This document shows, piece by piece, positions 1-20,226 of a stretch of 43,470 bases of DNA. A program made the translations under genes and the position numbers. Each line of letters starts with the position of its first letter. Position 1 is the stretch's first letter. The notes beneath the pieces are model-generated. The model made no database searches, was not told the DNA's origin, and saw nothing but the letters and a program-made list of their open reading frames with translations. The DNA is from Minisyncoccota bacterium (GTDB taxonomy: Bacteria; Patescibacteriota; Minisyncoccia; Phycocordibacterales; UBA1550): the NCBI GenBank assembly GCA_028712595.1, contig JAQTPS010000005.1, positions 1 through 43,470 of the forward strand, given 5' to 3'.

Positions 1-1040
1 CCCCAAATATCTTTACCGGCGCCGCCACCTCCTCCGCCGCCAGAACCAGCATTTCCTTTAAAAGCTATTGGAGAACTTCCTTCTGGGAACAATCGCCATA
101 AAATGGCACTTTGGAGATTTTGCATTGAGCCCCAGGCTGGTGAAAGTCCTGTTACGCTTCCTCCTCCCCCGCCACCGGCACCAACCCACCCTTCTGGGCT
201 ACCTGGGTCACTCGATTTTCCACCACGCCCAGCCGTTCCTGAAGCTCCCGGACCACCAACTCCAATTGAATTTGTTACTGAAAGACCACTTGTTCCCGCC
301 ACACCAGGAGCTCCTGTCGTATAACACCCATTCGGACATGTTGTGGAAGTAGTTCCCCCTGCTCCTCCACTAACACCTGCTATCCCCGCAGGCAAATAAC
401 CAGCTGGTTGCGCAGCGCCCCCCGAGTCGCCACTTGCTCCGTTCCTTGCGATTTTTCCTGAAAGAGTTAGTGTGCCTTTAACAAAGACGCGATAACCACC
501 AGGGTTAAGAGTGACCCCACTACTGATTGTTAGGTTTGTGAAAAAGGCATCACGCTGAAGCGTGTAGCTTGTAGCGCTGTCTTTTGTGAAGAGTCCCGAG
601 ACGGTTGCTTGTGTTCCGTCCAGAACGTAGGCGCCATCAACACCTGAACCATAATTACTTCCTCCACCACCGCCCCCTCCGCCACCAACCGCGTTCAAAC
701 AAACTCCTGTTCCTGTTCCTGTTGAGTTGCTACAAACATCGCCCGTAGCATAAAGACTTCCCGTTTGTGTTGAACTTGCGTTTGGTTTTAAATAAATATC
801 TGCAAGAACTGAATCTGCATTTGGATTTGCGAAAAATAGAGGATTGTTTGAATCAAGGAAGCTTGCGAACGACAAACTTCCGAGTTTTGTTTGGTCGGTA
901 CCACTCGTGTTTAATGGTGCTGAAACATTCCCCGTCGGTGCAGTTTGCGTCGGAGCTGTCCAGGCGTAGACATACGAGAGACCGAGGGTTAGAAATACGG
1001 CAAGGGTGATGATTTTGGTGGTCTGAAGAATATTTTTCAT
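1..1040 (-). CDS. Secreted glycine-rich protein, C-terminus cut by window start
   Basis: Manual reverse-strand translation from ATG at 1040 stays open to base 1: MKNILQTTKIITLAVFLTLGLSYVYAWTAPTQTAPTGNVSAPLNTSGTDQTKLGSLSF..., signal peptide then Gly-rich tracts (VGGGGGGGGGSNYG...). Absent from the ORF track, probably because it has no stop in the window. Confidence 0.85.
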   Translation of the reverse strand, partial: MKNILQTTKIITLAVFLTLGLSYVYAWTAPTQTAPTGNVSAPLNTSGTDQTKLGSLSFASFLDSNNPLFFANPNADSVLADIYLKPNASSTQTGSLYATGDVCSNSTGTGTGVCLNAVGGGGGGGGGSNYGSGVDGAYVLDGTQATVSGLFTKDSATSYTLQRDAFFTNLTISSGVTLNPGGYRVFVKGTLTLSGKIARNGASGDSGGAAQPAGYLPAGIAGVSGGAGGTTSTTCPNGCYTTGAPGVAGTSGLSVTNSIGVGGPGASGTAGRGGKSSDPGSPEGWVGAGGGGGGSVTGLSPAWGSMQNLQSAILWRLFPEGSSPIAFKGNAGSGGGGGGGAGKDIW

Positions 1041-4181: not shown

Positions 4182-4631
4182 TTATTTGGTTTTTGGAGCT
4201 ACCTCCTTTTTGGTTTCTTTTTTTGCTGTCTTCTTTGCAACTACCTTTACGGCCTTATCTGCCTTAGTTTTTTTGTCAGAAACTACTGCTGACTTAGGAG
4301 CTTCCGAACGCGGAATGAGCTCTATCATAACATGGCTCGTGTGCTTGTGTATCGGAGATGCTGAACCGTGAGACTTCGGGATAAAACGCTTGAGAATCAT
4401 CCCCTGGTCAACGCGAACTTCTTTTACAAAAAGTTCCTCAATTCCAATGTGGTCATTCTCTTTTGCGTTTGCAATAGCAGAAAGCAAAAGTTTTTTCATA
4501 GCTTCGGAAGCACGTTTTGGAAGTACCGAAAGCTCCACCAAGGCCCGCTCTGCGGTCTTCCCTTTCATTAGGTTCGCGACAAGACGAACTTTGCGTGGTG
4601 CTTGTCGATAGCTTTTAAGATAGGCCTTCAT
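4182..4631 (-). CDS. rplV: 50S ribosomal protein L22 with Lys/Ala-rich C-terminal extension
   Basis: MKAYLKSYRQAPRKVRLVANLMKGKTAERAL...; tail SDKKTKADKAVKVVAKKTAKKETKKEVAPKTK. Confidence 0.96.
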   Translation of the reverse strand: MKAYLKSYRQAPRKVRLVANLMKGKTAERALVELSVLPKRASEAMKKLLLSAIANAKENDHIGIEELFVKEVRVDQGMILKRFIPKSHGSASPIHKHTSHVMIELIPRSEAPKSAVVSDKKTKADKAVKVVAKKTAKKETKKEVAPKTK

Positions 4632-4642
4632 AGTTTTTAAAT

Positions 4643-4999
4643 TTATTTTTTAGGAGCGGCGGAAGCGGGAGCAATTTCTGCTTTTGCTGCAGCTGCTGCG
4701 GCAATTTCGCTTTCTTTCTTCTTCATTTCAAGCTCCTTCTGCATTCTACCTCCGTGACGTAGGAATTTCTTTGTAGGAGAAAACTCTCCGAGTCGATGAC
4801 CCACCATATCTTCGGTCACGCGGACTTCGAGGTGGGTCTTGCCATTGTACACGCCGAAAAGGAACCCTACCATTTCTGGAGAAATCTGGCTGTCCCTTGA
4901 CCATGTTTTTATCATGGGTTCAGTTTGTGTATTTTTACCGGAAATCTTCTTAAGAAGTTTCGGGTCAATAAACGGTCCTTTTTTGAGTGATCGTGTCAT
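4643..4999 (-). CDS. rpsS: 30S ribosomal protein S19 with Ala-rich C-terminal extension
   Basis: [19 protein letters not shown]...[18 protein letters not shown]; start re-set to ATG at 4999. Confidence 0.97.
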
Positions 5000-5041
5000 A
5001 GGTATATTTAAACAAAACAAGCTCGGATGAGCTCGTTCTGC

Positions 5042-5069
5042 ATCTTATCAAACTAGAGAATAATGTCAA
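5042..5069 (-). promoter_or_regulatory. Sigma70-type promoter for the rpsS..rplE unit
   Basis: Reverse strand TTGACA-N16-TAAGAT (ttTGACATTATTCTCTAGTTTGATAAGATGC), -35 at 5064-5069, -10 at 5042-5047, about 45 nt before rpsS ATG. Confidence 0.75.
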
Positions 5070-5120
5070 ACTTTGGCTTATTTCCTGTTCGTTTTTTGCG
5101 GTTAGATCACAAACAGGCCA

Positions 5121-6092
5121 TTAGAACTGTATGACACTACTCTTGCAATCTTTAGGGCATGAGAGGTTAGTTTCACCGCCAGCTCTATTGCAGACGCCGT
5201 CACCACAAGTGGTTCCCGTAGTAGCAGGGGTGCAGGTTTGAGTAGCAATTGTACAGGATCTTATAGCAGTTCCTCCCAATGCGCATTGTCCAACTTGGAC
5301 TCCGGCAACGTTTGTTTGAGTTGCTGGAGGTGCAACACACTGACTAATCGCCTGACAAACTCCCCATCCATCCGCTGGCACATCAAGTGGGTTGCAAGGA
5401 GGTACGAAAATTACAGGGCCCAAATCAACTCCGGCGAGGCGTGGATTAAAATCAATCCAACCTATAACATCAGATGCCCATGCATATCTCGAGAATCTAT
5501 TTGCGGAAACTTTTACGCCTTTGTTTGCCCAGACCCCTACGCTGTCATCGGAGAGTTTTATCCATCCATCCCAACCGCCAGCTGCGGCGCCTGCTCCAGA
5601 ACCAGAGCATGAGGAAACCGGCGTTCCAGGAGTAACTTCGCAACCAACAAGGGCGCGCATCCAGCCAGTAACTTTTCCTGTTGACCAATCTACTTTGGCA
5701 ATAGCTCCACTTCCTCCGTTAAACGGTGCTGAAGGAGGATTTCCTGTGGCAGTGCGATCGAAACTAATCCAACCAAGGTGTTCGCTCCAAACATTTCCAG
5801 ACATATCGCCCATTCCTCCGGTTGCTTTGTTGGAAGTATCGACATTCGCGCCATACGAAGTAGCAGAACCATCACTAGTACTATTCCAGCTCATCCATCC
5901 AATATTTTCGCTCCACGTCCATCCCGAAATATTGTAAGGCGATGTGGTTGTAGTTGGGGTGCTTGGGGTAGCCGGTCCTGCGGGAGTACCAGCAGCAAAA
6001 GTCTTGAGTGAAATGGCACCAACAGAGAAAATCGCTACAACCGCAAGAACCGATATTGTTCTTTTCATAATTTTGTTTGTTAAAAATTTCAT
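5121..6092 (-). CDS. Secreted protein with repeated WSxNIGW/GWISF-type motifs and a Cys-rich C-terminal CGDGVCN..GGETNLSCPKDC motif
   Basis: Signal peptide (MKRTISVLAVVAIFSVGAISLKTFA); repeats SGWTWSENIGWMSWN, NVWSEHLGWISFD, AWASDVIGWIDFN. Confidence 0.85.
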   Translation of the reverse strand: MKFLTNKIMKRTISVLAVVAIFSVGAISLKTFAAGTPAGPATPSTPTTTTSPYNISGWTWSENIGWMSWNSTSDGSATSYGANVDTSNKATGGMGDMSGNVWSEHLGWISFDRTATGNPPSAPFNGGSGAIAKVDWSTGKVTGWMRALVGCEVTPGTPVSSCSGSGAGAAAGGWDGWIKLSDDSVGVWANKGVKVSANRFSRYAWASDVIGWIDFNPRLAGVDLGPVIFVPPCNPLDVPADGWGVCQAISQCVAPPATQTNVAGVQVGQCALGGTAIRSCTIATQTCTPATTGTTCGDGVCNRAGGETNLSCPKDCKSSVIQF

Positions 6093-6167
6093 ATGATTAT
6101 ATTGTAACTTATTTCTATACAAGTGCATAGTGAATAATTGGACGAATTGTGCCTTTGCTAATCTGGG

Positions 6168-9100
6168 CTAGAACGTTGAATAGTTTCCGTTCGCGCCCCT
6201 TGTGAAAATTCGGTAATAATATGCCTGACCATTTACCAATCCCCTGTCGATACAGGAGGTTGCAGGAGAGTTAACCACGCACGCTACGGTACTCAACCCC
6301 AAAGCATACCCGGTTCCGTATGTCGTACCGTCGACAGGAATCTCTGTAGGGGCAACTAGGGCGCGTCTTAGAACCAAGATGCTCCGCAGGTTAGGGCTAG
6401 AAGGGTTTACCCATCTCAAGAAAACTTGTTTATTGCCTGCTTGTGCCACAGCTCCAGAAACTTCTTGAAGCGATCCCGATGAACCAACAGTGAATGAAAC
6501 TGTGTTTGATGCGTATGCGCTGAAGCCAGAAGATGATAGTTGAATATTTCCTGTTATTGCGCCTTGAGGAACCTGAACGCAGATTTCTTTGTAGGTCCAC
6601 GCCGTGCCTGTTCCATTGCAATTACCTGCGCCTCCAGTCAAACTTTCAAAATCATTTTCAGTGGCTTGAGTAGTTGCAAACACAACTTTGTTGCTTGCTG
6701 TTGACCTGCTACCAGAAGCCGGGCACGTCCCATCTTGGCAGAAATGATTTCCGTTAATCTGAATCGTATCGCCAGTGCTTCCGGTCGAAGGCGAAATAGA
6801 TGTTATGCGCGGAAGAATACGGAGCGGAATAGAGTATGTATGTGTCAGAGAATTTCCTCCTGCCCCTTGGGTCATAACAACGGAGCCAGTGTAAACGTTG
6901 TCCGGAATAGCTACTGGAACTTGAACGGTGATTGCGGTGTTGCTCCACGAAACTACCGTAGCATTGTAGCCGAGAAGCTCTACCCCGCCACTCCCTTGTG
7001 CGGTACCAAAACGTGTACCATTTAATGTCAGGACGCCATCAGTGTCAGAAGCAGAGTATTCACGCGCTGTGTCCGCAAAAAGACTTGCGGCTGTTGTAGA
7101 AGTTATTTGCGGGAAAACATAGAAGTTGAGACCTGAAGTAGTTTGACTTCCTGCTGTTACCGTAAGGGCGTTACTTCCACCAAAGTTTGTTCCCCAATCA
7201 GTGTCTGAATCCCCAACAAGAGAAGTGTCCGTTGTAAATCTAATGGAGGTTGCGCTCCAAAAGACTACGTTTGAACTCGAGATTTGTTTTGTTCCAACTT
7301 TTATGTTATTCGCAGAAGTAGAACGATTACCTGCGCCGGGGTCAGTGCCAAAGTTTGTACCTGTGATTGTAATCGTTTGGAAAGATTCTGGCCCACCGAT
7401 TCGTACTCCGCAGGTCGTGCAAGATGCGGAATAATCCAACGCCCCGTCGGTTAAGTTGGAGTAAGAAGTAATTGCTGGTGGCGGACCGATGAAAGTCCAC
7501 CCACTTCCAGCAGTGGCTACGCCTTGATTGTCTATACTATGCTGACCAGCAGTCCAAGTTGAAGCTGGGGTTGCAATAGAGTGCTGAATATTTACATAAT
7601 CAACATTTATTGTTCCTCCGCCTGATTTTGTAAGAGTATGTGTTCCAGTTGTGTCACTATTTAATGTGATGAGATTACCAGCTGTTCCAGAAACTGTAAA
7701 AGTGGCAACCGTCTGTGTTGTTCCGCTTTTGAAGATTATGGAGTGTGCAGAAGTTCCGGTGTCTTTGAAATCGTTAAAGGTATTTGAACCGTAGATAGCA
7801 ATATTCCCAGTACTTGCTCCTCTTGAAAACCACACATTATTGTATGTGCCAGTTGATCCGTAGAAATTTAGACCTGTATTTGTTGTGTCTGTAAATTTAA
7901 TCGTTGAACCATTTGCCACAAACGTACAGACGGAGCTGTGGGACCAAGCTGTTCCAGCCCCCGTTAAGGTGATTAAACTATTGGTGCCAGCATTTACGGT
8001 TCCCGAGACGCTACCAATGAATGCTCCCGTTAATGTTAGGTCGCCAACGATATTTAATATTCCACCAAAGTTATACGGGTATAATCCATAAAGCGTTTTG
8101 CCATTGCTTGTAAGAGTGGACGTGCCACGCCCCCAAAAAGCATTGGCATTAGAACCCGAACTGTATGTTCCAACTCCTGTTAAGTTTATCGAACCAACGC
8201 TATAAAGTAGTCCGCCAACGGCAGATGACACCGTTACGGCTGGAGCGTTTAGCACATTGGAAAAATCAACACTAGGAACTCTGGGAATATCCATTGTTAT
8301 TGTTTTTCCCGTCGACGTAATCGAGTTTGAATCAAAAATAACTGTGTCCTGTAGTAACGGAACTGATGCTCCGCTTGATCCACCGGAGGTAGCTGACCAA
8401 GAGGATGTAGACGACCAGTTTCCTCCTGATGCAGCCACCCAATATCTAGTTACTGGGGTTGTAAATGTTATTCCGGTATTTCCAAGAGCATTTCCTATGG
8501 ATGTTCCAGACCATGTGGCAGCGCCCGCACCGGTGATGTCTTGGAAATCAACATTGGACAAGGATACTGCATTTGCAGTAATTGTTCTGGCTGTACCAAT
8601 AGTAGAAGAATAAATGAGCATACGATTCGTGATGGAATTGCCAGAAATAGTAAGGGTGCCATTAACACCAAGGGCGTCATACAAGTAGAGTCCTGAATAA
8701 GCGACAGCTGGTCCAACAATATTTAGGTTGTAGAACGAGCTTGTGCCATTGAAACCCTGGATGCGAGATGAACCGCTTATGGTAAATGTTTTTCCGTTTG
8801 GGTTGAATGTACCGGCAGTTCTTGATATTCCATTTGAGCCAACAGTGCTAGTGAAATCATCCCCAAGCTGAAATGTTCCTCCAGCGCCGGCTATTGTAAA
8901 TATGCTTGGGATTGAAACCCCGGCGGTTGTAATCAATTTTGTGCCAGAAGTAGCCTTAAAATTTAGATACCACGTAAACGTCCAGTTCATTCCAGAAACA
9001 AGCGTCAAATTCCCGTAAATGTTAAGAGCGTTGGGGCTTCCTCCCGCCAATGTTGGCTTTCCGCTACTTGGATTTGCCCATGCCATATCAGCGCAGTTCG

Positions 9101-12100
9101 CAGTAGTATCAATGGTTACCGTATAGTTTGCGCTTGCGGAATTTATATCAAACGAAACACTTTGAGTGCTTGTAGGAACAGACGCTCCGCCAGTTCCGCC
9201 AGATGAAGTTGACCAGTGAGCAGTATCACTCCAGTTTCCGCTTCCGCCAACCCAATAACGGTCAGCTACTACAGAATTAATAACGAAAGTTCCACTCGAA
9301 GTGAACGTGTGAATAGTATTCGCTCCGCTGGTTGTTTTTGTTCCTCCTGTTGTGCTTGCGGGATTAATACCTGCACTTCCATCTGTAGGATATGAAATAA
9401 TCACTACACCAGAGCCACCATTACCACCGTTAGCCAAGTTGTTTATTTGTCCTCCTCCTCCTCCACCAGTATTTGGTGTTGCGTTACCAGCAGGGGCACT
9501 ACCACCGCCACCGTTTCCACCTACGCCCGGAGTGCCTCCCATGTATGTTCCACCTCCTCCACCACCAGCATAATAAACAGACGAACCAGAAATCGAATAA
9601 GCCAATCCTACTCCTCCATTTCCTCCAGTTGTATTTGTAGGTACCCCACCGGAAGCCCCAGCTCCACCTCCTCCGCCGGCACCATAATTTGGTGAGGTTG
9701 TGTTACCACCACTACCAGAATTCCCTTGACCAGACGTACCCGATCCTCCAGTAGTATTGTTGTGCCCTGCTCCACCGCCTGAGCCACCCAGTCTTCCAGT
9801 CCCAGAGTTAGTTCCAGCTCCACCGCCACCAACTGCAATTAAATTATCAAAAATACTATTACCCCCATCAGATCCATTCCCCGGATCAGCGCTTCCAACT
9901 TGTCCGGCTCCGCCGCTTCCGACTGTTACAGTATACGACGATTGAGGTACGGCGTGGACAGCATCATAAAGTAACCCACCGGCACCTCCTCCACCGCCAG
10001 TCATTGCAGCACCCCCACCTCCTCCACCAACGACGAGAACTCTTACGTAACGGGCAGGAGTTGTAAACGTCCATCCGCTTCCGGCAGTAGCTACAGCTTG
10101 GTTGTTTACGCTATTCAAGCCAGCAGTCCAAGTCGAAGCTGGAGTGGCAACAGAGTGCTGAATGTTTACATAATCGACATTGATTGTTCCACCTCCAGAT
10201 TTTGTGAGGGTGAATGTGCCGGTTGAACTACTGTTTAGAGTGATTAAATTCCCAGCAGTACCTGAAACACTAAAGGTGCTTACAGTTTGTGTTGTTCCTG
10301 CTCCGAATATAATCGAGTGTGCAGCTGTGCCAGTGTCTTTGAAATCGGCAAATGTGTTGGAGCCAGAAACTGTGATGCTGCCGGTACTTGCACCGCGAGA
10401 GAACCACACGTTGTTGTATGTTCTGCTTCCTCCAACAAAAGTAACGGCATTATTACTGGTATCAGTTATTTTTATGGTTGAAGTATTTGCTGTTACGGTT
10501 GCTGTTCCAGCTGCCCAAATTGAACCAGATCCAGTGAGGGTCCACTGGCCACTGCCCATTGTTATAGACCTAGCCACAGTACTTGTCCCAGCATTGCCGT
10601 TTATTCCTGCGGTCGTTACAGCAAAGTTGTTAGCATTAAACGTTCCAGCACTGAGTTGTATTACATTTATGTTCGTATTGTTCAGAGCGTCTTGCAGTGT
10701 CAGCGTCCCACCAAACATCGAAACACCGAGCATAAAAGCTATTGGGACTCCGTTACTTCTCAGTGTGTAGCTTCCTCGACCATTAAGGGTTAAGGTATAA
10801 TTTGACCCACTTGTCGTTAATCCTGATATCAAAGTTAAAGATCCATAACTAGAAGCGTCCGCGGGAAGATTCCACGTCAACCCCGTCGTCCATGTTGCCA
10901 TGGTCCAATCAATGCTCTTGCCCAACCTTGGCATATCGGCAACTACGGTCGCTGAAGTTCCAAACGTGTAGTCCATCTGCACATCATCTTGTGGTAGAGG
11001 AACGCGGGGAGAATTTCCTGTCCAGTTAGCAGCATTTGACCAGTTCCCTCCAGCCGCAGTTATCCAGTGCTGGGTAAATGCAGGGGTGAAAGTAATTCCA
11101 GTGTTTCCGCCAGCATTTCCCACACTTACATTTGTTCCAAGAGTTCCTCCGGAGATAGTTATGTCTTGGAAGTCGACGTTGCTGTAGTTAACAGATGCGC
11201 CTGTCGCTGTAATTGTGCGCGCAGTACCTAGAGAGTTTGATTTTACCCACAATCTATTTGTTGTAGAGTTTCCGTTTATCGTTAAATTATGCGTAACCGC
11301 CCATGTACAATCCGACCCAAAAGTTGCCGCTGCGGTTTTGCTTGCGTTGCCCGTGAGAATTAGGTCATAAAATGCGCTTGAACCAGCAAATGAGCCACCA
11401 ATCTGAATGACCGACGACGTATAATTTACCGCCTTACCGTTTGCAACAAATGTTCCACCTCCATAGTTCAATGCATAAGAACCATTTAGGTTCAAGTTAT
11501 CCTGAAGTGTGAATGTTGCTGTTCCAGTTGCTCCAATTATAAGATTCCCAACAAAAGCGACCCCGTTTGATGTGATAGTTTTTGCTCCACTTGTTGCGGC
11601 AAAAGTTATCGTTCCGTTGTAGGTAATATTCATACCGGGCGCCATTGTCAGAGACCCGTATATGCTCATTGGTGTTGGGTATGAACCACCCCAAGTTACT
11701 ATTCCACTACTTGGATTTCCCCATGTGATGTCGCCAACAACTGCTGCAGAATCAATTGTAACCGTGTAACTTGCGCCGGATGAGTTCGTGTCGAATGCAA
11801 CACTTTGAGTACTTGTAGGAACAGATGCTCCACTTGCGCCTCCAGATGAGGTTGACCAGTGGGCAGTACTGCTCCAGTTTCCTGTTCCCCCAACCCAATA
11901 GCGGTCAGCTACGACAGGAGCTGTATATGTAACTACGAGCGTCGGGTCTTGTGTTGTGCCAGCTTGTTCTGAAGCATAAAAATTTACTCTAGTGTGCAAG
12001 CGTCCACCTTCGTTTGGATTGCCGGAACCCATGATATCTTCGTTCATTAAAAGGGCAAACTTGGCGATACCTCCCGGAATGATGCGAGCAAGGCCTGAAG

Positions 12101-13418
12101 CATTTAATGCATAGGTATAAGCATTTCCAGCTGTGAAGGTTGCATAGCTTATGGGTGTAGAATATTGTGTGAAAACATAATGAGAAGAAGCATAGTCGGT
12201 AAACGCAACAGCAGTGTTGCTTGCCGGAGAACTTCCTGCAATGTTCCAGTTCCATGCAGTGTTTCCGTCTGCGTACTTCGATTCAACGGTTACGACGAGG
12301 TTGGCAGCGGTTACGGTTGCTGTTCCGGGAATTGAGGATACATCGAAAAGCATAATTCCGCGAGACAACACTTCGTACTGATTTGCTATGTACCCACCTT
12401 TTACTCCTACATAGATAGTACTAGCATCGTCAGCGCCACTTTCTCCCGGTTCAGCTCTAACGTTGGTCCACGGGATACCATCGCCAGTATTGTTTGCGTC
12501 TGATGCATAACCGTCCACACTTGTGACTTCTGTATGTGGATTCGGATAGAACGTACTCGTCGCATCCGTAAATACAGGAAGCGTTGCATTCGAGAAGTAA
12601 TCTGCCTTTATGTGCTTGGTGAGAATGTATTCGTTGGGGTCGGATTGAATTGTCGGCTTCTGGAAGTCAAAATTAATTGGTTCTCGAGAGTCCCAGCCAC
12701 CGCTAGAGTCCCAGATGTAGAAGTTTGCCCAACCGTTTCCTCTTTCTGCTGTCGCATCTTTTAGTTTGACAGTTACGTTTTTACCGTTGTTGACGGTTTC
12801 TACGGGATCAGAGTAATTGACTTTGAATTTAAAGTCAGTATCTTTTGTCAATTTTTCATTGAAACGAATGAACTTTCGGAGTTCTGGAGCTTTACCTTGG
12901 TAGACCCAATAAATGAGGTCTGCTTTGTATTCTGGGTAAGCGTTTGGATAGACGACGTACTCTACACTTCCCCAACCTAGGTCTCCGGTCTCTGTCTTTC
13001 CCTCTACGTGAGCTACGCCAAGTGCTTGAATACTTTGAGCTAAAGGTTTGTCGTAGATGATTTTCTTTGTGAAAATGTCATAACGGTTGTTGTTGTTGAA
13101 AGTTGCTACTTCATCAGAGTAGAAAGGAGCTACTACTTCAAATGGAGCTTTGGTCATTTCAAAACCCCTTGTTGTTTTTGTGAAGTTTGGGTCTATGGTC
13201 TGCCATTTTCCCCCTTCATCCATATAGTTGACCCACTTTCCGTGGAAAGCTGTTTCCCGCTCCCCATTGTCAAGGACTTTGGTTACGGTGTTGTAGGAGA
13301 GTTCGGGGGCGTCTTTACCGTTGGAGGCAGAAGATTTGTGAATTAAAATTGCGAACCCAGAACCGATTGCGACGATTGATAAAAGGACAACAACAAAAAC
13401 CTTATTAATGTTTTTCAT
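6168..13418 (-). CDS. Giant (~2416 aa) secreted repeat surface protein: repeated beta-rich modules, Gly-rich domain, IPT/TIG-like domains, FN3-like C-terminus
   Basis: Single uninterrupted ORF; N-terminal signal sequence MKNINKVFVVVLLSIVAIGSGFAILI; repeated RYWVGGxGNWSxTAHWSTSSGG and TYNNVWFSRGASTGxI...NTFxDFKDTG modules; TIG-like 'ITSISPSTGSTGDTIQINGNHF'. Confidence 0.9.
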   Translation of the reverse strand: MKNINKVFVVVLLSIVAIGSGFAILIHKSSASNGKDAPELSYNTVTKVLDNGERETAFHGKWVNYMDEGGKWQTIDPNFTKTTRGFEMTKAPFEVVAPFYSDEVATFNNNNRYDIFTKKIIYDKPLAQSIQALGVAHVEGKTETGDLGWGSVEYVVYPNAYPEYKADLIYWVYQGKAPELRKFIRFNEKLTKDTDFKFKVNYSDPVETVNNGKNVTVKLKDATAERGNGWANFYIWDSSGGWDSREPINFDFQKPTIQSDPNEYILTKHIKADYFSNATLPVFTDATSTFYPNPHTEVTSVDGYASDANNTGDGIPWTNVRAEPGESGADDASTIYVGVKGGYIANQYEVLSRGIMLFDVSSIPGTATVTAANLVVTVESKYADGNTAWNWNIAGSSPASNTAVAFTDYASSHYVFTQYSTPISYATFTAGNAYTYALNASGLARIIPGGIAKFALLMNEDIMGSGNPNEGGRLHTRVNFYASEQAGTTQDPTLVVTYTAPVVADRYWVGGTGNWSSTAHWSTSSGGASGASVPTSTQSVAFDTNSSGASYTVTIDSAAVVGDITWGNPSSGIVTWGGSYPTPMSIYGSLTMAPGMNITYNGTITFAATSGAKTITSNGVAFVGNLIIGATGTATFTLQDNLNLNGSYALNYGGGTFVANGKAVNYTSSVIQIGGSFAGSSAFYDLILTGNASKTAAATFGSDCTWAVTHNLTINGNSTTNRLWVKSNSLGTARTITATGASVNYSNVDFQDITISGGTLGTNVSVGNAGGNTGITFTPAFTQHWITAAGGNWSNAANWTGNSPRVPLPQDDVQMDYTFGTSATVVADMPRLGKSIDWTMATWTTGLTWNLPADASSYGSLTLISGLTTSGSNYTLTLNGRGSYTLRSNGVPIAFMLGVSMFGGTLTLQDALNNTNINVIQLSAGTFNANNFAVTTAGINGNAGTSTVARSITMGSGQWTLTGSGSIWAAGTATVTANTSTIKITDTSNNAVTFVGGSRTYNNVWFSRGASTGSITVSGSNTFADFKDTGTAAHSIIFGAGTTQTVSTFSVSGTAGNLITLNSSSTGTFTLTKSGGGTINVDYVNIQHSVATPASTWTAGLNSVNNQAVATAGSGWTFTTPARYVRVLVVGGGGGGAAMTGGGGGAGGLLYDAVHAVPQSSYTVTVGSGGAGQVGSADPGNGSDGGNSIFDNLIAVGGGGAGTNSGTGRLGGSGGGAGHNNTTGGSGTSGQGNSGSGGNTTSPNYGAGGGGGAGASGGVPTNTTGGNGGVGLAYSISGSSVYYAGGGGGGTYMGGTPGVGGNGGGGSAPAGNATPNTGGGGGGQINNLANGGNGGSGVVIISYPTDGSAGINPASTTGGTKTTSGANTIHTFTSSGTFVINSVVADRYWVGGSGNWSDTAHWSTSSGGTGGASVPTSTQSVSFDINSASANYTVTIDTTANCADMAWANPSSGKPTLAGGSPNALNIYGNLTLVSGMNWTFTWYLNFKATSGTKLITTAGVSIPSIFTIAGAGGTFQLGDDFTSTVGSNGISRTAGTFNPNGKTFTISGSSRIQGFNGTSSFYNLNIVGPAVAYSGLYLYDALGVNGTLTISGNSITNRMLIYSSTIGTARTITANAVSLSNVDFQDITGAGAATWSGTSIGNALGNTGITFTTPVTRYWVAASGGNWSSTSSWSATSGGSSGASVPLLQDTVIFDSNSITSTGKTITMDIPRVPSVDFSNVLNAPAVTVSSAVGGLLYSVGSINLTGVGTYSSGSNANAFWGRGTSTLTSNGKTLYGLYPYNFGGILNIVGDLTLTGAFIGSVSGTVNAGTNSLITLTGAGTAWSHSSVCTFVANGSTIKFTDTTNTGLNFYGSTGTYNNVWFSRGASTGNIAIYGSNTFNDFKDTGTSAHSIIFKSGTTQTVATFTVSGTAGNLITLNSDTTGTHTLTKSGGGTINVDYVNIQHSIATPASTWTAGQHSIDNQGVATAGSGWTFIGPPPAITSYSNLTDGALDYSASCTTCGVRIGGPESFQTITITGTNFGTDPGAGNRSTSANNIKVGTKQISSSNVVFWSATSIRFTTDTSLVGDSDTDWGTNFGGSNALTVTAGSQTTSGLNFYVFPQITSTTAASLFADTAREYSASDTDGVLTLNGTRFGTAQGSGGVELLGYNATVVSWSNTAITVQVPVAIPDNVYTGSVVMTQGAGGNSLTHTYSIPLRILPRITSISPSTGSTGDTIQINGNHFCQDGTCPASGSRSTASNKVVFATTQATENDFESLTGGAGNCNGTGTAWTYKEICVQVPQGAITGNIQLSSSGFSAYASNTVSFTVGSSGSLQEVSGAVAQAGNKQVFLRWVNPSSPNLRSILVLRRALVAPTEIPVDGTTYGTGYALGLSTVACVVNSPATSCIDRGLVNGQAYYYRIFTRGANGNYSTF
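7491..7919 (-). repeat. Diverged internal repeat of the giant ORF, copy A
   Basis: Aligns by eye with 10063-10493, including STWTAGxxSxxNQ.VATAGSGWTF and TKSGGGTINVDYVNIQHS.ATPAS coding DNA. Confidence 0.8.
9106..9270 (-). repeat. RYWVGG module DNA repeat, copy 1
   Basis: aacactttgagtgcttgtaggaacagacgctccgcc...cccaataacggtcagctac matches 11749-11913 with scattered substitutions. Confidence 0.8.
10063..10493 (-). repeat. Diverged internal repeat of the giant ORF, copy B
   Basis: See copy A at 7491-7919. Confidence 0.8.
11749..11913 (-). repeat. RYWVGG module DNA repeat, copy 2
   Basis: aacactttgagtacttgtaggaacagatgctccact...cccaatagcggtcagctac. Confidence 0.8.
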
Positions 13419-13469
13419 ATTACCAATATTGTACATTATTTTTGCTTACAATAATACTATTCCTTTGCC

Positions 13470-13494
13470 TTTCCATCGGCTAAGCCGATGGAAA
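13470..13494. other. Perfect hairpin upstream of the giant surface-protein gene
   Basis: tttccatcggc-taa-gccgatggaaa, 11-bp perfect stem with 3-nt loop. Confidence 0.6.
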
Positions 13495-13499
13495 TCTTA

Positions 13500-13542
13500 C
13501 AAAAAACTCGCCGAGCATCGTTTTGATGCTCGGCGAGTTTTT
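13500..13542. terminator. Bidirectional intrinsic terminator after rplB
   Basis: aaaaaactcgccgagcatc-gtttt-gatgctcggcgagttttt: 14-bp perfect stem with A/T tracts. Confidence 0.9.
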
Positions 13543-13552
13543 ATAGATTGTA

Positions 13553-14392
13553 TTATTTCGTCTCTTTGTGTTTTCGGCGTTCAACAATGAGATTGTTGGA
13601 GTATTTCTTTGGAGTACGCGTCTTTCGTCCACCAGTAATCTTGCCGGAACGAGTCTTTGGTCTCTTTGTACCACGGCCTTGTCGTCCTTCACCTCCTCCG
13701 TATGGGTGGTCAACTGGGTTCATAGCAGTACCACGAACCTTTGGACGAATTCCGAGCCAGCGAGAGCGTCCTGCCTTGCCGAGATTTCGGTGTTTGTATT
13801 CCTCGTTTGAAACAGCGCCGATAGAAGCCCATGCATTTTCTGAAACCTTTCGGATTTCTCCTGAAGGCATCTTCAAATGTGTCTGTCCGTCGTTGTTTGC
13901 AACAACTTCAGCGTAAATTCCAGCTGAACGAGCAATACGAGCGCCTCCGTGCGGTTCAACTTCGATATTGAAAACGAAAGTTCCGACTGGGGTCTTTCGC
14001 AAAGGAAGACGATTGCCGATTTTCAAAGATGCGTCCTCGCTTACGATTATTTCATCTCCCACTTTTAGTCCTTTTGGAAGAAGAGTGTATCGACGATCGC
14101 CGTCTTTATAGCAAATGAGCGCAATGAAACCCGAGCGATTTGGATCGTATTCAACAGTTTCTACTTTTGCAGGAATATTAAACTTCTGCATAGAGAAATC
14201 AATCTCACGGAATGCGCGTTTGTGTCCTCCGCCCCGGTGAGATGAAGTGATACGACCAAAAGAGTTGCGTCCCGAGCCACGGCTAAAACCTGTGGTTAGA
14301 GATTTCTTTGGTTTGTTCGTCGAAAGCACTCCGCGGTACGTAACGATTGCGGTTTTGCGAAGCGACTTTGTTCTTGGTCTAAAAGTTTTCAT
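13553..14392 (-). CDS. rplB: 50S ribosomal protein L2
   Basis: GRNSFGRITSSHRGGGHKRAFREIDF...RGTAMNPVDHPYGGGEGR; canonical L2. Confidence 0.98.
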   Translation of the reverse strand: MKTFRPRTKSLRKTAIVTYRGVLSTNKPKKSLTTGFSRGSGRNSFGRITSSHRGGGHKRAFREIDFSMQKFNIPAKVETVEYDPNRSGFIALICYKDGDRRYTLLPKGLKVGDEIIVSEDASLKIGNRLPLRKTPVGTFVFNIEVEPHGGARIARSAGIYAEVVANNDGQTHLKMPSGEIRKVSENAWASIGAVSNEEYKHRNLGKAGRSRWLGIRPKVRGTAMNPVDHPYGGGEGRQGRGTKRPKTRSGKITGGRKTRTPKKYSNNLIVERRKHKETK

Positions 14393-14394
14393 AT

Positions 14395-14793
14395 TTATAT
14401 AATTTCTATCTTATCGCCTTTCTTTAGCGTCACGAGCGCTTTGCGAACTCCTGTTCGGAGACCCATCTTGCCTCGCACAAATACACGAGCGCTTGGGAGG
14501 TTTATGATGTTCACGCGAACTGGAACTACGCCGTAAACTGCTCGAATAGCTTTTGCAATTTCCTGCTTGTTGCTTTCCTTTGCGACTTCAAATACATAAG
14601 TATTTTTTTCTGCGAGGATAGCTGCCTTTTCGGTTATGTGAGGTCGAACTAGTACGCCCGCAAGATCACCGGTTTTTTCTACCTTTTTAGCGAGTTTTGC
14701 AACCTTAACTGCAGGAGTCTTTACTTTCTTTTCTGCCTTTTTCTCTGCTTTTGGGGCAACCTCTTTTTCTGTTGTTTTCTTAAAAATAGCCAT
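14395..14793 (-). CDS. rplW: 50S ribosomal protein L23 with Lys/Ala-rich N-terminal extension
   Basis: LVRPHITEKAAILAEKNTYVFEVAKESNKQEIAKAIRAVYGV; ~45 aa basic N-terminal extension. Confidence 0.95.
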   Translation of the reverse strand: MAIFKKTTEKEVAPKAEKKAEKKVKTPAVKVAKLAKKVEKTGDLAGVLVRPHITEKAAILAEKNTYVFEVAKESNKQEIAKAIRAVYGVVPVRVNIINLPSARVFVRGKMGLRTGVRKALVTLKKGDKIEII

Positions 14794-14804
14794 GATAGTA
14801 TTGA

Positions 14805-15557
14805 TTATTTAGCAAGCGCCTTTGGAGCTTTCTCGACCTTGGTTGCCTTTTTGCTCTTAGCGACCGGGGCTTCCTTTACAACTTCTACTTTAGCTTGGGC
14901 AAGTTTACCTTCGAGCCATTTCACGCTAGCATCGGCGCCGACAATCACAACGAATTTGTAGTTGAGAAGTGAAAGCACATCCATATTCTTTAGGTCGTCA
15001 AAATGAACGTTGCTGAAGTTTGCAAAGCTCTTTGAAACCACAGGATTCTTTTCTGCTGTTGTAATGTATGCCGTATTTTTTCGGCGAGTAGAAAGTTTTT
15101 CAAAACCTTTTATTCCTCCGAGAGATGCGAGGATTCCTTTTATTTCGGATGTTTTTGGTTTATCCATAGCAATCGCATCAACAAACAAAATTTCATTGTT
15201 GCGAAGCTTCTCCGAAAGAACAGTGTAGAGGGCTTTGCTACGAATTTTTTTGTTGATTTTCTTGCTGTAGTTTGCGTCTGTAAGGGGTCCGTGTGTGATA
15301 CCTCCGTGTCTCCAAAGTGGAGAACGAATTGTGCTGTGACGTGCCTGACCTGTTCCCTTTTGCTGCCAAGGTCTCTTTCCTCCTCCGGAAACTTCTCCGC
15401 GGTCCTTTACGGATGCAGTAGCTACTCGAGCATTTGAGCGCATCGATTCTACCACCTGGTGAACGAGATCTCCGTTCCAAGAAAGACCCCAGACATTTTC
15501 ATTCAAGGCAATCTTTCCAGCTTCTTTTCCTTTTGTATTGTAAATTTTAGCTTCCAT
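14805..15557 (-). CDS. rplD: 50S ribosomal protein L4
   Basis: SNARVATASVKDRGEVSGGGKRPWQQKGTGQARHSTIRSPLWRHGGITHGP; L4 family. Confidence 0.97.
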   Translation of the reverse strand: MEAKIYNTKGKEAGKIALNENVWGLSWNGDLVHQVVESMRSNARVATASVKDRGEVSGGGKRPWQQKGTGQARHSTIRSPLWRHGGITHGPLTDANYSKKINKKIRSKALYTVLSEKLRNNEILFVDAIAMDKPKTSEIKGILASLGGIKGFEKLSTRRKNTAYITTAEKNPVVSKSFANFSNVHFDDLKNMDVLSLLNYKFVVIVGADASVKWLEGKLAQAKVEVVKEAPVAKSKKATKVEKAPKALAK

Positions 15558-15568
15558 GGTAGTAAAAA

Positions 15569-16198
15569 TTATTTGTTAGGTCTCTTTGACTTAATTTCGA
15601 GAATCGCTCCCTTAATGCCCGGTACACAGCCGGAGATTAATATTTTCCCGTTGTCGGTGTCAACCCCAAGCACGCGAAGACCGGAGATGGTGATTTTATC
15701 TCCACCCATACGTCCAGCCATGCGCATACCTTTCGCAACGCGACCTCCGGCGCGAGCTCCACCTCCGATTGAACCCGGCTCGCGTTCAGAGTGTTTCTGT
15801 CCGTGAGTTCGAGAACCTCCGTGGAAACCATGGCGTTTAACAACACCCTGGAATCCTTTTCCTTTTGAGATACCGGAGATAACGAGTTCGTCGCCTATGG
15901 CAAAAAGAGAGGCATCTAAAGCATCTCCTCTCTTCCATTTGCTCGAGTCGTCAACAGTGAATTCGCGGATAGTCGCAAAAGAACCAATGTCTTTTGTGTG
16001 ACCTGCGACACCCTTTGAGATATTTTTTGCATTACGCACGCCAAAACCTACCTGTACAGCTTCATAGCCATCGGTAGCTTTTGACTTTACTTGCGCAACA
16101 ACAGAAGGCGTCACTTGAACAAGTGTTGCCGCTGTAGCCATTCCATCGTTTCCGATGAAAGTAACCATATTTTCTTTTCGTCCTAGAATAAATTTCAT
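15569..16198 (-). CDS. rplC: 50S ribosomal protein L3
   Basis: GDELVISGISKGKGFQGVVKRHGFHGGSRTHGQKHSEREPGSIG; L3 family; start chosen at MKFILG. Confidence 0.96.
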   Translation of the reverse strand: MKFILGRKENMVTFIGNDGMATAATLVQVTPSVVAQVKSKATDGYEAVQVGFGVRNAKNISKGVAGHTKDIGSFATIREFTVDDSSKWKRGDALDASLFAIGDELVISGISKGKGFQGVVKRHGFHGGSRTHGQKHSEREPGSIGGGARAGGRVAKGMRMAGRMGGDKITISGLRVLGVDTDNGKILISGCVPGIKGAILEIKSKRPNK

Positions 16199-16258
16199 AT
16201 CGGTAACCATTGCAACCTTTTTTCGGGTTGTTGGTATTTTAACTATCTAATAATCGTC

Positions 16259-16609
16259 TTACATCATCTTCACGTCGATGTTGACTCCTGACGGAAGCGA
16301 AAGATTTGTGAGTGCCTCTATCACTTTCGCATTCGGATTCAAGATGTCAATCAAACGCTTGTGGGTTCTCATCTCAAACTGCTCTCGCGCATTTTTGTAA
16401 ATGAACGGAGAACGGTTTACGGTGTACTTCTTTATCTCCGTTGGCAGTGGAATGGGGCCCATCACTTCTGCATCATATCTTAGCGCAGTATCGATAATCT
16501 GTTTTACAGAATTGTCGAGAACTTTGTGCTCATAAGCGCGCACACGAATGCGAAGCTTGTGGGTTACTTCTTTGTCTGCGACTTTTTTTGTTACCGATTT
16601 TGTGGGCAT
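16259..16609 (-). CDS. rpsJ: 30S ribosomal protein S10
   Basis: [52 protein letters not shown]. Confidence 0.97.
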
Positions 16610-16637
16610 AGAATTGATGATAATAAACTGTATCGCT

Positions 16638-17837
16638 TTATGCGTTGATCTTTGTTACAACCCCTGCGCCAACTGTCTTGCCTCCTTCGCGGATAGCGAA
16701 ACGCTGTTCTACTTCAAGAGCAACAGGAACGATAAGTTTTACCTTGAGGTTCACTGTGTCGCCAGGCATAACCATTTCAGTCCCTTCAGGGAGTGTTGCA
16801 TCGCCTGTTACGTCCGTTGTGCGAACATAGAACTGTGGTTTGTATCCGTTAAAGAATGGTGTGTGACGTCCTCCTTCTTCCTTTGAGAGAATGTAAACTT
16901 CTGCTTCAAAGTCTGTGTGAGGAGTTACGCTCCCTGGTTTTGCGAGAACTTGTCCACGAGTAATGTCTTCTTTCTTTGTGCCTCGGATGAGGAGACCGGC
17001 ATTGTCGCCTGCCATACCTTCATTGAGTGACTTGTTGAACATTTCAATTCCTGTAACGGTTGTCTTTGCTGTTGGCTTGATACCGATGATTTCGATTTCA
17101 TCTCCAACTTTGATAACACCGCGTTCGATACGTCCTGTAGCTACAGTACCGCGTCCTTCGATAGAGAAGACGTCTTCTACTGGCATAAGGAATGGCTTGC
17201 TAACGTCGCGAACTGGAAGTGGAATGTAAGTGTCGAGTGCATTTACGAGCTCAAGAATCTTTTTTGCCCATTCGTCATCTACTGATTTTGCCTCGAGTCC
17301 TTTCAAAGCTGAACCACGGATAACTGGGGCATCCTTTCCATCAAACTTGTACTTTGTGAGAAGGTCGCGAACTTCTTCTTCAACCATATCAATCATTTCT
17401 GGGTCATCAACCATATCGCACTTGTTGAGGAATACCAAAACCTTTGGAACTCCGATCTGTCGAGCAAGGAGGATGTGCTCTCGTGTTTGAGGCATCACAC
17501 CGTCTGTTGCAGCAACAACCAAGATTGCGCCGTCCATTTGTGCGGCACCAGTAATCATGTTCTTGATGTAGTCAGCGTGACCTGGCGCATCGATGTGCGC
17601 ATAGTGACGAGCGTCTGTTGAATATTCGTTGTGTGAAAGCGCAATAGTAATACCGCGGGCCTTTTCCTCCGGTGCGGAGTCGATTTGGTCAACGGTCTTA
17701 AGTCGTACTTCCTTTCCTGAAAGGTTAAGCACATTCAAAATTGCAGCTGTCAAAGTTGTTTTTCCGTGGTCTACGTGACCAATGGTTCCTACGTTGACGT
17801 GCGGCTTGGAACGATCAAATTTTGCTGATTCTGCCAT
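16638..17837 (-). CDS. tuf: Elongation factor Tu
   Basis: [23 protein letters not shown]...[47 protein letters not shown]. Confidence 0.99.
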
Positions 17838-17851
17838 AATATTTTATGTCC

Positions 17852-17899
17852 CTTGTAATGAAGGGTTCATACACGAGCCAATGAACCTTTAATTACAAG
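17852..17899 (-). promoter_or_regulatory. 5'-UTR hairpin immediately upstream of tuf
   Basis: cttgtaat-g-aagggttcat-acacgagcca-atgaacctt-ta-attacaag; outer 8-bp stem and inner ~9-bp stem with one bulge, 14 nt before the tuf ATG. Confidence 0.6.
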
Positions 17900-17959
17900 A
17901 GAAAAATTAATTAATAACTAATAAAGAAACAAAAGTACCGCGTACGCGATACAGGCGTC

Positions 17960-17987
17960 ATCTTAACAGAATGACAAGAATAGTCAA
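17960..17987 (-). promoter_or_regulatory. Candidate tuf promoter
   Basis: Reverse strand TTGACT-N16-TAAGAT (-35 17982-17987, -10 17960-17965). Confidence 0.6.
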
Positions 17988-18030
17988 GTGGGCACAATAC
18001 GTTCCTTGGAGAAATCTCAGAGAAGTCTCA

Positions 18031-18069
18031 ACTTAAAAACCGAGCTTAGCTCGGTTTTTAAGTTTTTTT
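18031..18069. terminator. Intrinsic terminator after fusA
   Basis: acttaaaaaccgagc-tta-gctcggtttttaagttttttt. Confidence 0.85.
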
Positions 18070-18081
18070 GTATTTATTCCC

Positions 18082-20226
18082 CTATTTTCTCGCCTCGATG
18101 ATGGTTGTTGCCACGTTTGTAGGCACAACATCGTAGTTAGAAAACTCCATTGTTGAGGATGCGCGACCTTCTGTCATAGAGCGGAGAGCCGTTGTGTAGC
18201 CAAACATTTCTGAAAGAGGAACTTTTGCGGAAACAACTTTCATTGCCCCACGTTCGCTCATTCCTTCTATCTGCGCTCGCTTCGATGAAAGGTTGCCTGT
18301 TACGTCACCCATGAATTTTTCTGGAGTCACAACTTCAACTTTCATAATAGGTTCGAGTATAACCGGACCTGCGCGCTTTGTAGCTTCTTGAAAAGCTTGA
18401 GATGCGGCAATCTTGAATGCGATTTCCGAAGAGTCTACTTCGTGGAATGAACCGTCCAAAAGCTCTGCAGAAATATCTACCACCTTAAATCCGGCCTGAA
18501 CACCGCGATCCACTTCTTCGATAACACCTTTTTCAACTGAAGGAATATATTCCTGTGGAATAACACCTCCTTTGATAGAGTTGATGAATTCAAAGTGGTC
18601 ATCGCGACGCTTGACGTTCTTCTTGAGGTCCTCTTTCTTGACTGTCTTGTCGATAGGACGAACACGAAGCTTGACGTGGCCGTATTGTCCGCGACCTCCT
18701 GTCTGCTTGATGTATTTGACATCGGCTTCTGCTTCTTTTGTAATAGTTTCTTTGTATGCAACTTGTGGAGCGCCGACATTTGCCTCAACGCTGAACTCGC
18801 GCTTCATGCGGTCAACGATAATTTCAAGGTGAAGCTCACCCATTCCTTCAATGATAGTTTCCATTGTCTCTGGATCGCTCTTGATGTGGAATGTTGGATC
18901 TTCGTCAGCAAGTTTCTTCAAGGCCATTCCCATTTTCTCTTGGTCTGCTTTTGTTTTTGGTTCAATGCGGAGAGAGATAACCGGTTCAGGGAACTTAATT
19001 TCCTCAAGAACTATAGGATGCTCTTCACTGCAAAGAGTGTGGGATGTTTTAGTATTTTTCAAACCTACGATTGCGGCAATTTCACCGGCAAAAACTTTCT
19101 TAACTTCCTCACGAGAGTCTGCTTGGAGACGAACCATGCGTCCGATGCGCTCTTTTTCTCCTGTTGTGGAGTTGTAAATATATGAACCTGCTTCTATCGT
19201 TCCCGAGTATGCTCGGAAGAATGTGAGCTGACCAACAAATGGGTCTGCCTGAAGTTTGAATGCGAGCCCGCAGAATGGTTCTTTGTCGTCCGCCTTTCGT
19301 GTGATTGTTTCACCCGTATTAGGATCAATTCCTGAAACCGGTTTCAAATCTATAGGCGAAGGAAGATAATCAACTACAGCATCTAGAACGAGTTGAACTC
19401 CTTTGTTTTTGAGCGCTGATCCTGCGTACACAGGGAAAACTTCGTTTGCAATAACCGCCTTGCGAAGAGTTGCTTTCAAAACATCCATAGGAATTTCCTT
19501 TCCTTCGAGATAAGCAGTCATCAGTTTTTCATCATTCTCGACAATACGCTCGATGAGATCATGGTGAAGTTTTTTTGCCTCTGCAACATATTTTTCTGGG
19601 ATTTCTGCTTCAACCACATCCATCCCCATTTCACCTTCAAATTTGTACATCTTCAATTTGAGAAGATCAATAACACCTTCAAATGCGTCTTCGAGCCCTA
19701 CAGGAATCTGCATGCGAACAGCTTTTGGATTTAGGCGGTCAAGAATAGAAGCGTAAGATTTTTCAAAGTTAGCGCCTGTGCGGTCAAGTTTGTTGATGAA
19801 ACAAATACGAGGAACTTGCGCTTCGTCAGCATAACGCCAGTTGGTTTCTGATTGCGGTTCAACTCCGGCAACACCGTCAAAAACAACGACTGCTCCGTCA
19901 AGCACGCGAAGGGAACGCTTTACTTCTACGGTAAAGTCGATGTGTCCGGGGGTATCGATGATGTTGAAACGAAACATATTCTCCTTTTTCTTTTCAACGT
20001 CAGTTTTGCTCCAGAAACAAGTGATAGCTGCGGCGGTAATTGTAATTCCGCGCTCGCGCTCCTGCTCCATCCAGTCAGTTACAGTTTCACCTTCGTGAAC
20101 TTCACCGATTTTGTGAGTCATACCCGTGTAAAAGAGAACACGCTCGGAGGTCGTAGTTTTCCCAGCGTCAATATGGGCAATGATCCCAAAATTTCTTACT
20201 TTCTGAAGCGGATAATCTCGTTCCAT
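18082..20226 (-). CDS. fusA: Elongation factor G
   Basis: MERDYPLQKVRNFGIIAHIDAGKTTTSERVLFYTGMTHKIGEVHEGETVTDWMEQERERGITITAAA. Confidence 0.99.
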   Translation of the reverse strand: MERDYPLQKVRNFGIIAHIDAGKTTTSERVLFYTGMTHKIGEVHEGETVTDWMEQERERGITITAAAITCFWSKTDVEKKKENMFRFNIIDTPGHIDFTVEVKRSLRVLDGAVVVFDGVAGVEPQSETNWRYADEAQVPRICFINKLDRTGANFEKSYASILDRLNPKAVRMQIPVGLEDAFEGVIDLLKLKMYKFEGEMGMDVVEAEIPEKYVAEAKKLHHDLIERIVENDEKLMTAYLEGKEIPMDVLKATLRKAVIANEVFPVYAGSALKNKGVQLVLDAVVDYLPSPIDLKPVSGIDPNTGETITRKADDKEPFCGLAFKLQADPFVGQLTFFRAYSGTIEAGSYIYNSTTGEKERIGRMVRLQADSREEVKKVFAGEIAAIVGLKNTKTSHTLCSEEHPIVLEEIKFPEPVISLRIEPKTKADQEKMGMALKKLADEDPTFHIKSDPETMETIIEGMGELHLEIIVDRMKREFSVEANVGAPQVAYKETITKEAEADVKYIKQTGGRGQYGHVKLRVRPIDKTVKKEDLKKNVKRRDDHFEFINSIKGGVIPQEYIPSVEKGVIEEVDRGVQAGFKVVDISAELLDGSFHEVDSSEIAFKIAASQAFQEATKRAGPVILEPIMKVEVVTPEKFMGDVTGNLSSKRAQIEGMSERGAMKVVSAKVPLSEMFGYTTALRSMTEGRASSTMEFSNYDVVPTNVATTIIEARK

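Follow-up and report, generated by a model that had tools for sequence, protein, structure and literature searches.

The S10-spc superoperon carries rpsJ-rplC-rplD-rplW-rplB and rpsS-rplV-rpsC-rplP-...-rpsQ-rplN-rplX-rplE in that order on one strand. Its rplB–rpsS junction is among the adjacencies most often cited as evidence that gene order is deeply conserved, and contigs that span it are a routine source of concatenated ribosomal-protein markers. The locus described here lies in a contig of a Minisyncoccota bacterium (GenBank assembly GCA_028712595.1, contig JAQTPS010000005.1, positions 1 to 43,470; the window, in what follows, is this whole 43,470-nt stretch), part of a metagenome-type draft genome of 660 kb in 37 contigs that is 93% complete and has Candidatus Yonathbacteria and other Parcubacteria-group genomes as its closest named relatives, which places it in the Patescibacteria/CPR. 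Pfam searches give the minus-strand order rpsJ, rplC, rplD, rplW, rplB, two secreted-protein genes, rpsS, rplV, rpsC, rplP, rpsQ, rplN, rplX and rplE. The order and strand are thus those of the superoperon. The locus differs from it in two breaks, one at rplB–rpsS, where a conserved promoter and inserted genes intervene, and one after rplE; rplB does not lie directly before rpsS in one unit, and the other operon adjacencies are kept. The initial annotation of this DNA had also seen rplB and rpsS parted by two same-strand secreted-protein genes, which the domain searches and open reading frames bear out. The gap measures 8,553 nt because we set the rpsS start at ATG 4999, which gives the MTRSLKKGP N-terminus conserved among relatives, rather than at TTG 5020. 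It holds the genes of a 2416-aa protein (P0001) and a 323-aa protein (P0002); the insert has a G+C content of 0.46, and its reading frames are intact.

We consider it likely that this junction is an ancestral transcription-unit boundary of the order to which the window belongs, and that it later became a site of gene accumulation. Positions of rplB and rpsS were determined in 40 relatives and in a class-wide set of 112 genomes (comparison genomes are designated G###, the genome of the window G000, and loci L###). Within the genus (Yonathbacteria) the two genes are 1,385-17,645 nt apart in all ten genomes that have both on one contig, and across 20 other families of the order the gap runs from 46 nt to 11.2 kb, exceeding 400 nt in 12 of them; in G029 and G150, also of the order, the genes are tens of kb apart. 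Same-contig pairs from other orders of the class are adjacent in 101/101 cases, with no more than 421 nt between Pfam domain edges (median 102), and the difference between order and outgroup gives a Fisher p of 1e-11 when genomes are counted as independent although they are related. The neighbouring junctions stay tight in genomes of the order, with no more than 148 nt at rplW-rplB (n=29) and 376 nt at rpsS-rplV (n=32), so the expansion is specific to one junction and one order. The initial annotation had proposed a recent insertion in this genome and had named comparison with relatives as one way to refute it; the relatives show the separation to be ancestral for the genus and widespread in the order.

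Some of these genomes call for separate mention. Several relatives are fragmented drafts with contigs that end inside the gap. In Parcubacteria group bacterium GW2011_GWA1_47_8 (G012; L069, L070), rplB and a P0002-family gene lie in the interior of one contig and rpsS in another, so that upwards of about 40 kb separate the two units, if they have not been relocated altogether. The rplB of G007 (L059) is in two frames, and the rpsS of G009 (L062) was matched over residues 6-69 only; both oddities are probably sequencing or assembly errors.

The promoter before rpsS (TTGACA-16-TAAGAT) is central to this argument. A promoter consensus scan of the window returned 26 matches against 26.6 expected from shuffles, with no excess, and we therefore judged the promoter by its conservation, which supports the site where the scan alone does not. 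The 15 genus sequences that share it have a mean majority identity of 0.82 between -35 and +8, and one of 0.43 over the preceding 60 nt. Across the order, the pattern TTGAC-N14-19-T(A/T)nnnT lies directly before rpsS in 38 sequences, including those with gaps of 46-108 nt (G018, G020, G027, G039); a spacing-corrected form of the pattern gave 13 matches and none in the control, and in outgroup genomes 1/24 had a match, a weak one. The promoter exists even in families with a gap of no more than 46-108 nt. The simplest reading is therefore that the boundary is older than the cargo, and its delivery with a cassette, as had been supposed, is not supported. A dedicated hairpin search recovered the hairpin of the terminator proposed after rplB. 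A simple terminator scan did not detect this hairpin, apparently because its T run is absorbed by the stem. A strict perfect-stem finder recovers a terminator-like hairpin after rplB in 22/31 sequences of the order, a count that carries no shuffle control. The S10 operon of this genome is accordingly two separately bounded units with surface-protein genes between them, as first described; what falls away is the single cassette that was thought to have brought those boundaries in.

We propose that a promoter with its leader would have arisen before rpsS in the ancestor of the order; that the promoter came first is supported by its near-absence from outgroups and its presence without cargo. Its own promoter, usually with a short hairpin, should make rpsS-rplV-... 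independent of the upstream unit. Insertions after rplB would then be tolerated, since the essential genes are no longer cut off. Genes could accumulate in the gap, where a secreted protein became fixed in Yonathbacteria, while further cargo would come and go. At least some of this cargo may enter by homologous recombination in rplB combined with illegitimate joining, which would leave truncated rplB 3' ends, and much of it may be expressed from promoters of its own as cell-surface proteins.

The rpsS leader adds a structural feature to this boundary. Most sequences of the order can form a short hairpin that starts about 6-12 nt past the -10 box and is followed by a U-rich tract, and transcription would be expected to start close to it. 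Against dinucleotide shuffles, the folding z is -5.1 in this genome, with a genus mean of -3.1, and the mean is -1.6 in 23 other order sequences versus -0.19 in the corresponding stretch of 24 outgroup genomes (Mann-Whitney p = 2e-4). Together with the conserved promoter, the z-scores relative to the outgroup describe a conserved, structured 5' leader of the kind that defines ribosomal-protein leader RNAs. MAFFT misplaced some stems in the divergent leaders, so the assessment uses the energies against shuffles and outgroup in place of covariation counts. Two genomes (G018, G020) have the promoter without the hairpin. A search of Rfam families over positions 4600-18100, which include the leader, returned one sub-threshold and implausible match only. 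We also considered the leader motif as a repeated genomic element and rejected this: in the genus genomes matched by a gapped leader pattern, which overlooks shorter-loop variants such as that of this window, the hairpin sequence occurs only upstream of rpsS. It is possible that the hairpin stabilises or regulates the rpsS mRNA.

Comparable arrangements stand at other translation genes. The start of tuf (17987-17915) resembles that of rpsS, with TTGACT-16-TAAGAT and an adjoining hairpin, GTATCGCGTACGCGGTAC, followed by TTTTGTTTC. In genus members (L078, L079, L080, L086, L087, L089) a conserved extended -10 promoter lies 130-190 nt before rpsZ (S14), with a leader unlike that of rpsS. Given the like start of tuf and the related promoter before rpsZ, the leader is better seen as belonging to the translation-gene units of this lineage than as having come with a cassette.

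Features of the rplB–rpsS region and of the end of the contig, in coordinates of the window
Feature	Position	Strand	Remarks
rplB (ribosomal protein L2)	13553..14392	-	Last gene of the first unit, rpsJ-rplC-rplD-rplW-rplB; Pfam PF00181/PF03947, E 3e-31 and 8e-48
Intrinsic terminator of the first unit, after rplB	13499..13540	-	Perfect 15-bp stem, then T tract; dedicated hairpin search
Candidate -10 of P0001, TACAAT	13428..13433	-	About 9 nt 5' of the ATG; putative, read from the sequence and absent from the consensus scan
P0001, secreted-type giant, 2416 aa	6168..13418	-	Gly_rich_2 5e-26, TIG 4e-8; variable cargo of this genome
Candidate -10 of P0002, TACAAT	6101..6106	-	8 nt 5' of the ATG; putative, read from the sequence
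P0002, secreted, 323 aa	5121..6092	-	WSxNIGW repeats; genus-wide resident of the slot
Promoter of the rpsS unit, conserved extended -10, TTGACATTATTCTCTAGTTTGATAAGAT	5042..5069	-	Conservation among relatives
rpsS 5' leader	5010..5037	-	Hairpin AACGAGCTC-ATCC-GAGCTTGTT, then TTTTGTTT; folding z-scores
rpsS (ribosomal protein S19)	4643..4999	-	First gene of the second unit, rpsS-rplV-rpsC-rplP-...-rplE; Pfam PF00203 5e-33
Secreted Gly-rich protein gene after rplE	3..1040	-	Second superoperon break; runs off the contig end

The gene next to rpsS is the more constant occupant of the slot. P0002 has an N-terminal membrane helix, its repeats, and a Cys-rich C-terminus ending in DCKSSVIQF, and members of its family sit in the slot, or attached to one side of it, in 14/16 genus genomes. 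Ten of these homologues, complete or nearly so, share 31-54% identity with P0002. It matched no Pfam family above the cut-off and no NCBIfam entry, and a Foldseek search of PDB and BFVD with a model of moderate confidence (mean predicted local distance difference score 69) returned nothing better than E > 0.3. P0002 therefore lies outside the known surface-protein families that we searched by sequence or fold. A C-terminal tail of the type CPxDCKxKxxQF is common to P0002 and to secreted proteins encoded elsewhere in genus genomes (L177, L178, L179, L180), two of which adjoin gatC or gatA; the tail looks like a lineage-specific signature.

The position ahead of this resident is variable. It is empty in G004, G010, G011, G012 and G013, where the P0002 homologue follows rplB by about 115-300 nt, and filled with other genes in G002, G003, G005, G007, G009 and G014; by this comparison of empty and filled sites, P0001 fills the cargo position of the present genome. 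P0001 has a signal-like N-terminus, four GNWS-type beta-strand repeat blocks starting at residues 506, 784, 1387 and about 1664, a Gly-rich domain at residues 1115-1343, and IPT/TIG domains near the C-terminus; a sequence search against PDB returned no match. The proximity of its candidate -10 to the ATG may give a near-leaderless mRNA. Relatives of its N-terminal part occur in 3/78 other genomes sampled from the order, a rarity consistent with sporadic acquisition, and of the slot genes here P0001 alone plausibly arrived late. The same genome has another giant open frame, of more than 3200 aa (G000, C31:20896-22083; L075-L077), whose Gly-rich domain is 55% identical to that of P0001.

Some cargo recurs among genomes. 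Secreted AWTAPT-type proteins occupy the slots of G003, G005 and G014, and a lipoprotein-type pair those of G002 and G009 (56% identity). A PaaX-like gene lies in the slot of G005 and elsewhere in G004 (81%), and gatC-gatA in the slot of G001 and elsewhere in G010. The slot of G033 holds a DNA methylase and other genes, that of G002 toxin-antitoxin-like genes and an IS200-like (Y1) transposase, and giant or repeat surface proteins appear in slots of other families (G024, G031, G033). Secreted and surface types appear to be common among the slot genes. It is possible that these surface proteins act in host contact.

How cargo enters is suggested by one genome. In G002 (L055, JAUSES010000015.1), the 17.6-kb gap holds three 5'-truncated rplB 3' ends, which start at codons 182, 235 and 249 and are 92-93% identical to the intact gene. 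Each fragment heads a different gene block, and there are four blocks of unrelated genes in all. Incoming DNA may have recombined inside rplB at one end and joined non-homologously at the other; the product of such an entry would be an intact hybrid rplB with the new cargo behind it and, farther on, the old cargo headed by the truncated 3' end of the former rplB. The hallmarks of homology-facilitated illegitimate recombination, namely a homologous end in an anchor, a non-homologous joint and a displaced fragment of the anchor, are all present in G002, but no rplB fragment remains at the slot described here. The same process has been proposed for the effector-immunity arrays of the type VI secretion system and the rhs loci of Vibrio cholerae (PMC5361080). 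As for the DNA uptake that such entry would call for, type IV pilus, ComEC, ComF and DprA are part of the published Parcubacteria core (PMC4508563).

A second break follows rplE, where a terminator (within 1-1286) precedes a secreted Gly-rich protein gene that runs off the contig. The N-terminus of the encoded protein matches proteins from the rplB–rpsS slots of G003, G005 and G014. In genus relatives, rplE and rpsZ-rpsH are about 0.5-1.5 kb apart, with the conserved promoter before rpsZ. In this lineage the superoperon seems to consist of three or more units, each defined by a promoter.

Several observations weigh against an ancestral boundary that filled later, or narrow it. The promoter-first order of events is an argument from parsimony and not from a tree with reconstructed gains, and the promoter, terminator and hairpin are themselves predicted from sequence and conservation. 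G012, G032, G034 and G150 either lack the promoter pattern or show it unclearly. The gap is at most 318 nt in eight families of the order, so that insertion is frequent but not universal. In family f57, which belongs to another order, rplB and rpsS are on different contigs in 3/3 genomes (G070, G116, G139; L171-L176), with secA-, hrcA- and grpE-like genes upstream of rpsS in G070 and G139. This is probably an independent separation, and the promoter described here is therefore not the sole route to one. Finally, the rplB remnants come from one genome, a 1.1-Mb metagenome assembly of 80 contigs, and the entry mechanism accordingly rests on a single case.

Other histories would explain parts of the same evidence. 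If one recent cassette had carried the surface genes together with their boundaries into this genome and so split the operon, one would expect what is seen here, a terminator and a promoter that bound the cassette and a P0001 that is rare in the order. We give this very little credence, because the same separation, the same promoter and a P0002-family gene recur across the genus, and the rpsS promoter occurs without cargo in other families. The relatives refute a recent single insertion for the split and for P0002, and leave it standing for P0001 alone; the initial annotation was right about the features and wrong about their history. An assembly chimera that joined unrelated surface-protein contigs to the ribosomal operon is suggested by the draft's 37 metagenome-type contigs and by the breaks inside the gap in several relatives, as repeats would cause. 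The same promoter and a P0002-family gene at the rpsS side in independent assemblies from different projects, to which the G+C content of 0.46 and the intact frames of the insert may be added, make this extremely unlikely.

A site-specific mobile element may instead use the rplB 3' end as its target and the slot as its attachment site, much as islands use tRNA genes. Repeated integration would leave several rplB 3' fragments downstream of an intact gene, as in G002, and some slots contain the transposase, toxin-antitoxin-like genes and the methylase mentioned above. The fragments of G002, however, begin at three different residues with no fixed core, which argues against a site-specific integrase; no rplB remnant was found in this window or in the other genus inserts tested; and a Pfam scan of slot genes from this window and from part of the other genomes recognised no integrase. 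Of the integrase and fixed att repeats that define an integrase-driven island, none was recognised in the present slot, and we regard such an element as improbable. It is also possible that the position is adaptive, with selection placing surface genes at a ribosomal locus for high dosage or growth-linked expression. Nearly the whole genus keeps the resident secreted protein on the coding strand, and other families, too, have secreted or surface-type genes in the slot (G021, G024, G026, G031, G033). Against this, a terminator parts rplB from the cargo and candidate promoters precede the cargo genes, so that read-through would not be needed, and slots also hold gatC-gatA, a release factor, prephenate dehydrogenase, chorismate mutase and restriction-type genes; we hold selection for position to be a tentative and rather doubtful explanation.

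An ancestral boundary that later gathered genes would have consequences beyond this locus. An order-wide derived break, with gaps graded from 46 nt to 17.6 kb and a likely enabling step in the promoter and hairpin leader before rpsS, offers a natural experiment in the break-up of operons. The slot also points to where lineage-specific surface proteins might be sought in bacteria that are probably attached to hosts. The order, a large one that contains Candidatus Yonathbacteria, consists of tiny and probably host-dependent bacteria. We found no earlier report of an order-wide rplB–rpsS split in the literature searched, which is not proof that none exists. It is tempting to speculate further, although we think it unlikely, that rplB is a fixed recombination anchor for the exchange of surface-protein modules across the order, an integron-like slot without an integrase, and that the hairpin leader is a novel RNA regulator of translation genes. 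Donor DNA would then pair in rplB, new genes would land before a self-sufficient rpsS unit, and older modules would be pushed downstream; such exchange, enabled by the hairpin leader, could let these bacteria change their host-contact proteins.

Three known systems help to place what we see. The S10 leader, bound by L4, is an example of autogenous control, and the rpsS leader resembles ribosomal-protein leader RNAs of this kind in being a hairpin in the 5' leader of a ribosomal-protein unit. It is unlike them in that its hairpin is very short, lies near the predicted +1 and runs into a U tract, has no Rfam match, and belongs to an arrangement that also precedes tuf. Integration hotspots and genomic islands at tRNA 3' ends share with the slot a housekeeping locus, species-specific cargo and, in one case here, 3' fragments of the gene; unlike them, the slot has no recognised integrase or fixed core, and its fragments differ in length. 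The V. cholerae arrays (PMC5361080) have a conserved upstream anchor with new DNA just behind it and old truncated 3' ends pushed downstream, as in G002. Unlike those arrays, the fragments here come from one genome, the cargo is mostly surface proteins and unrelated genes, and the role of anchor falls to an essential ribosomal gene whose intact form is restored.

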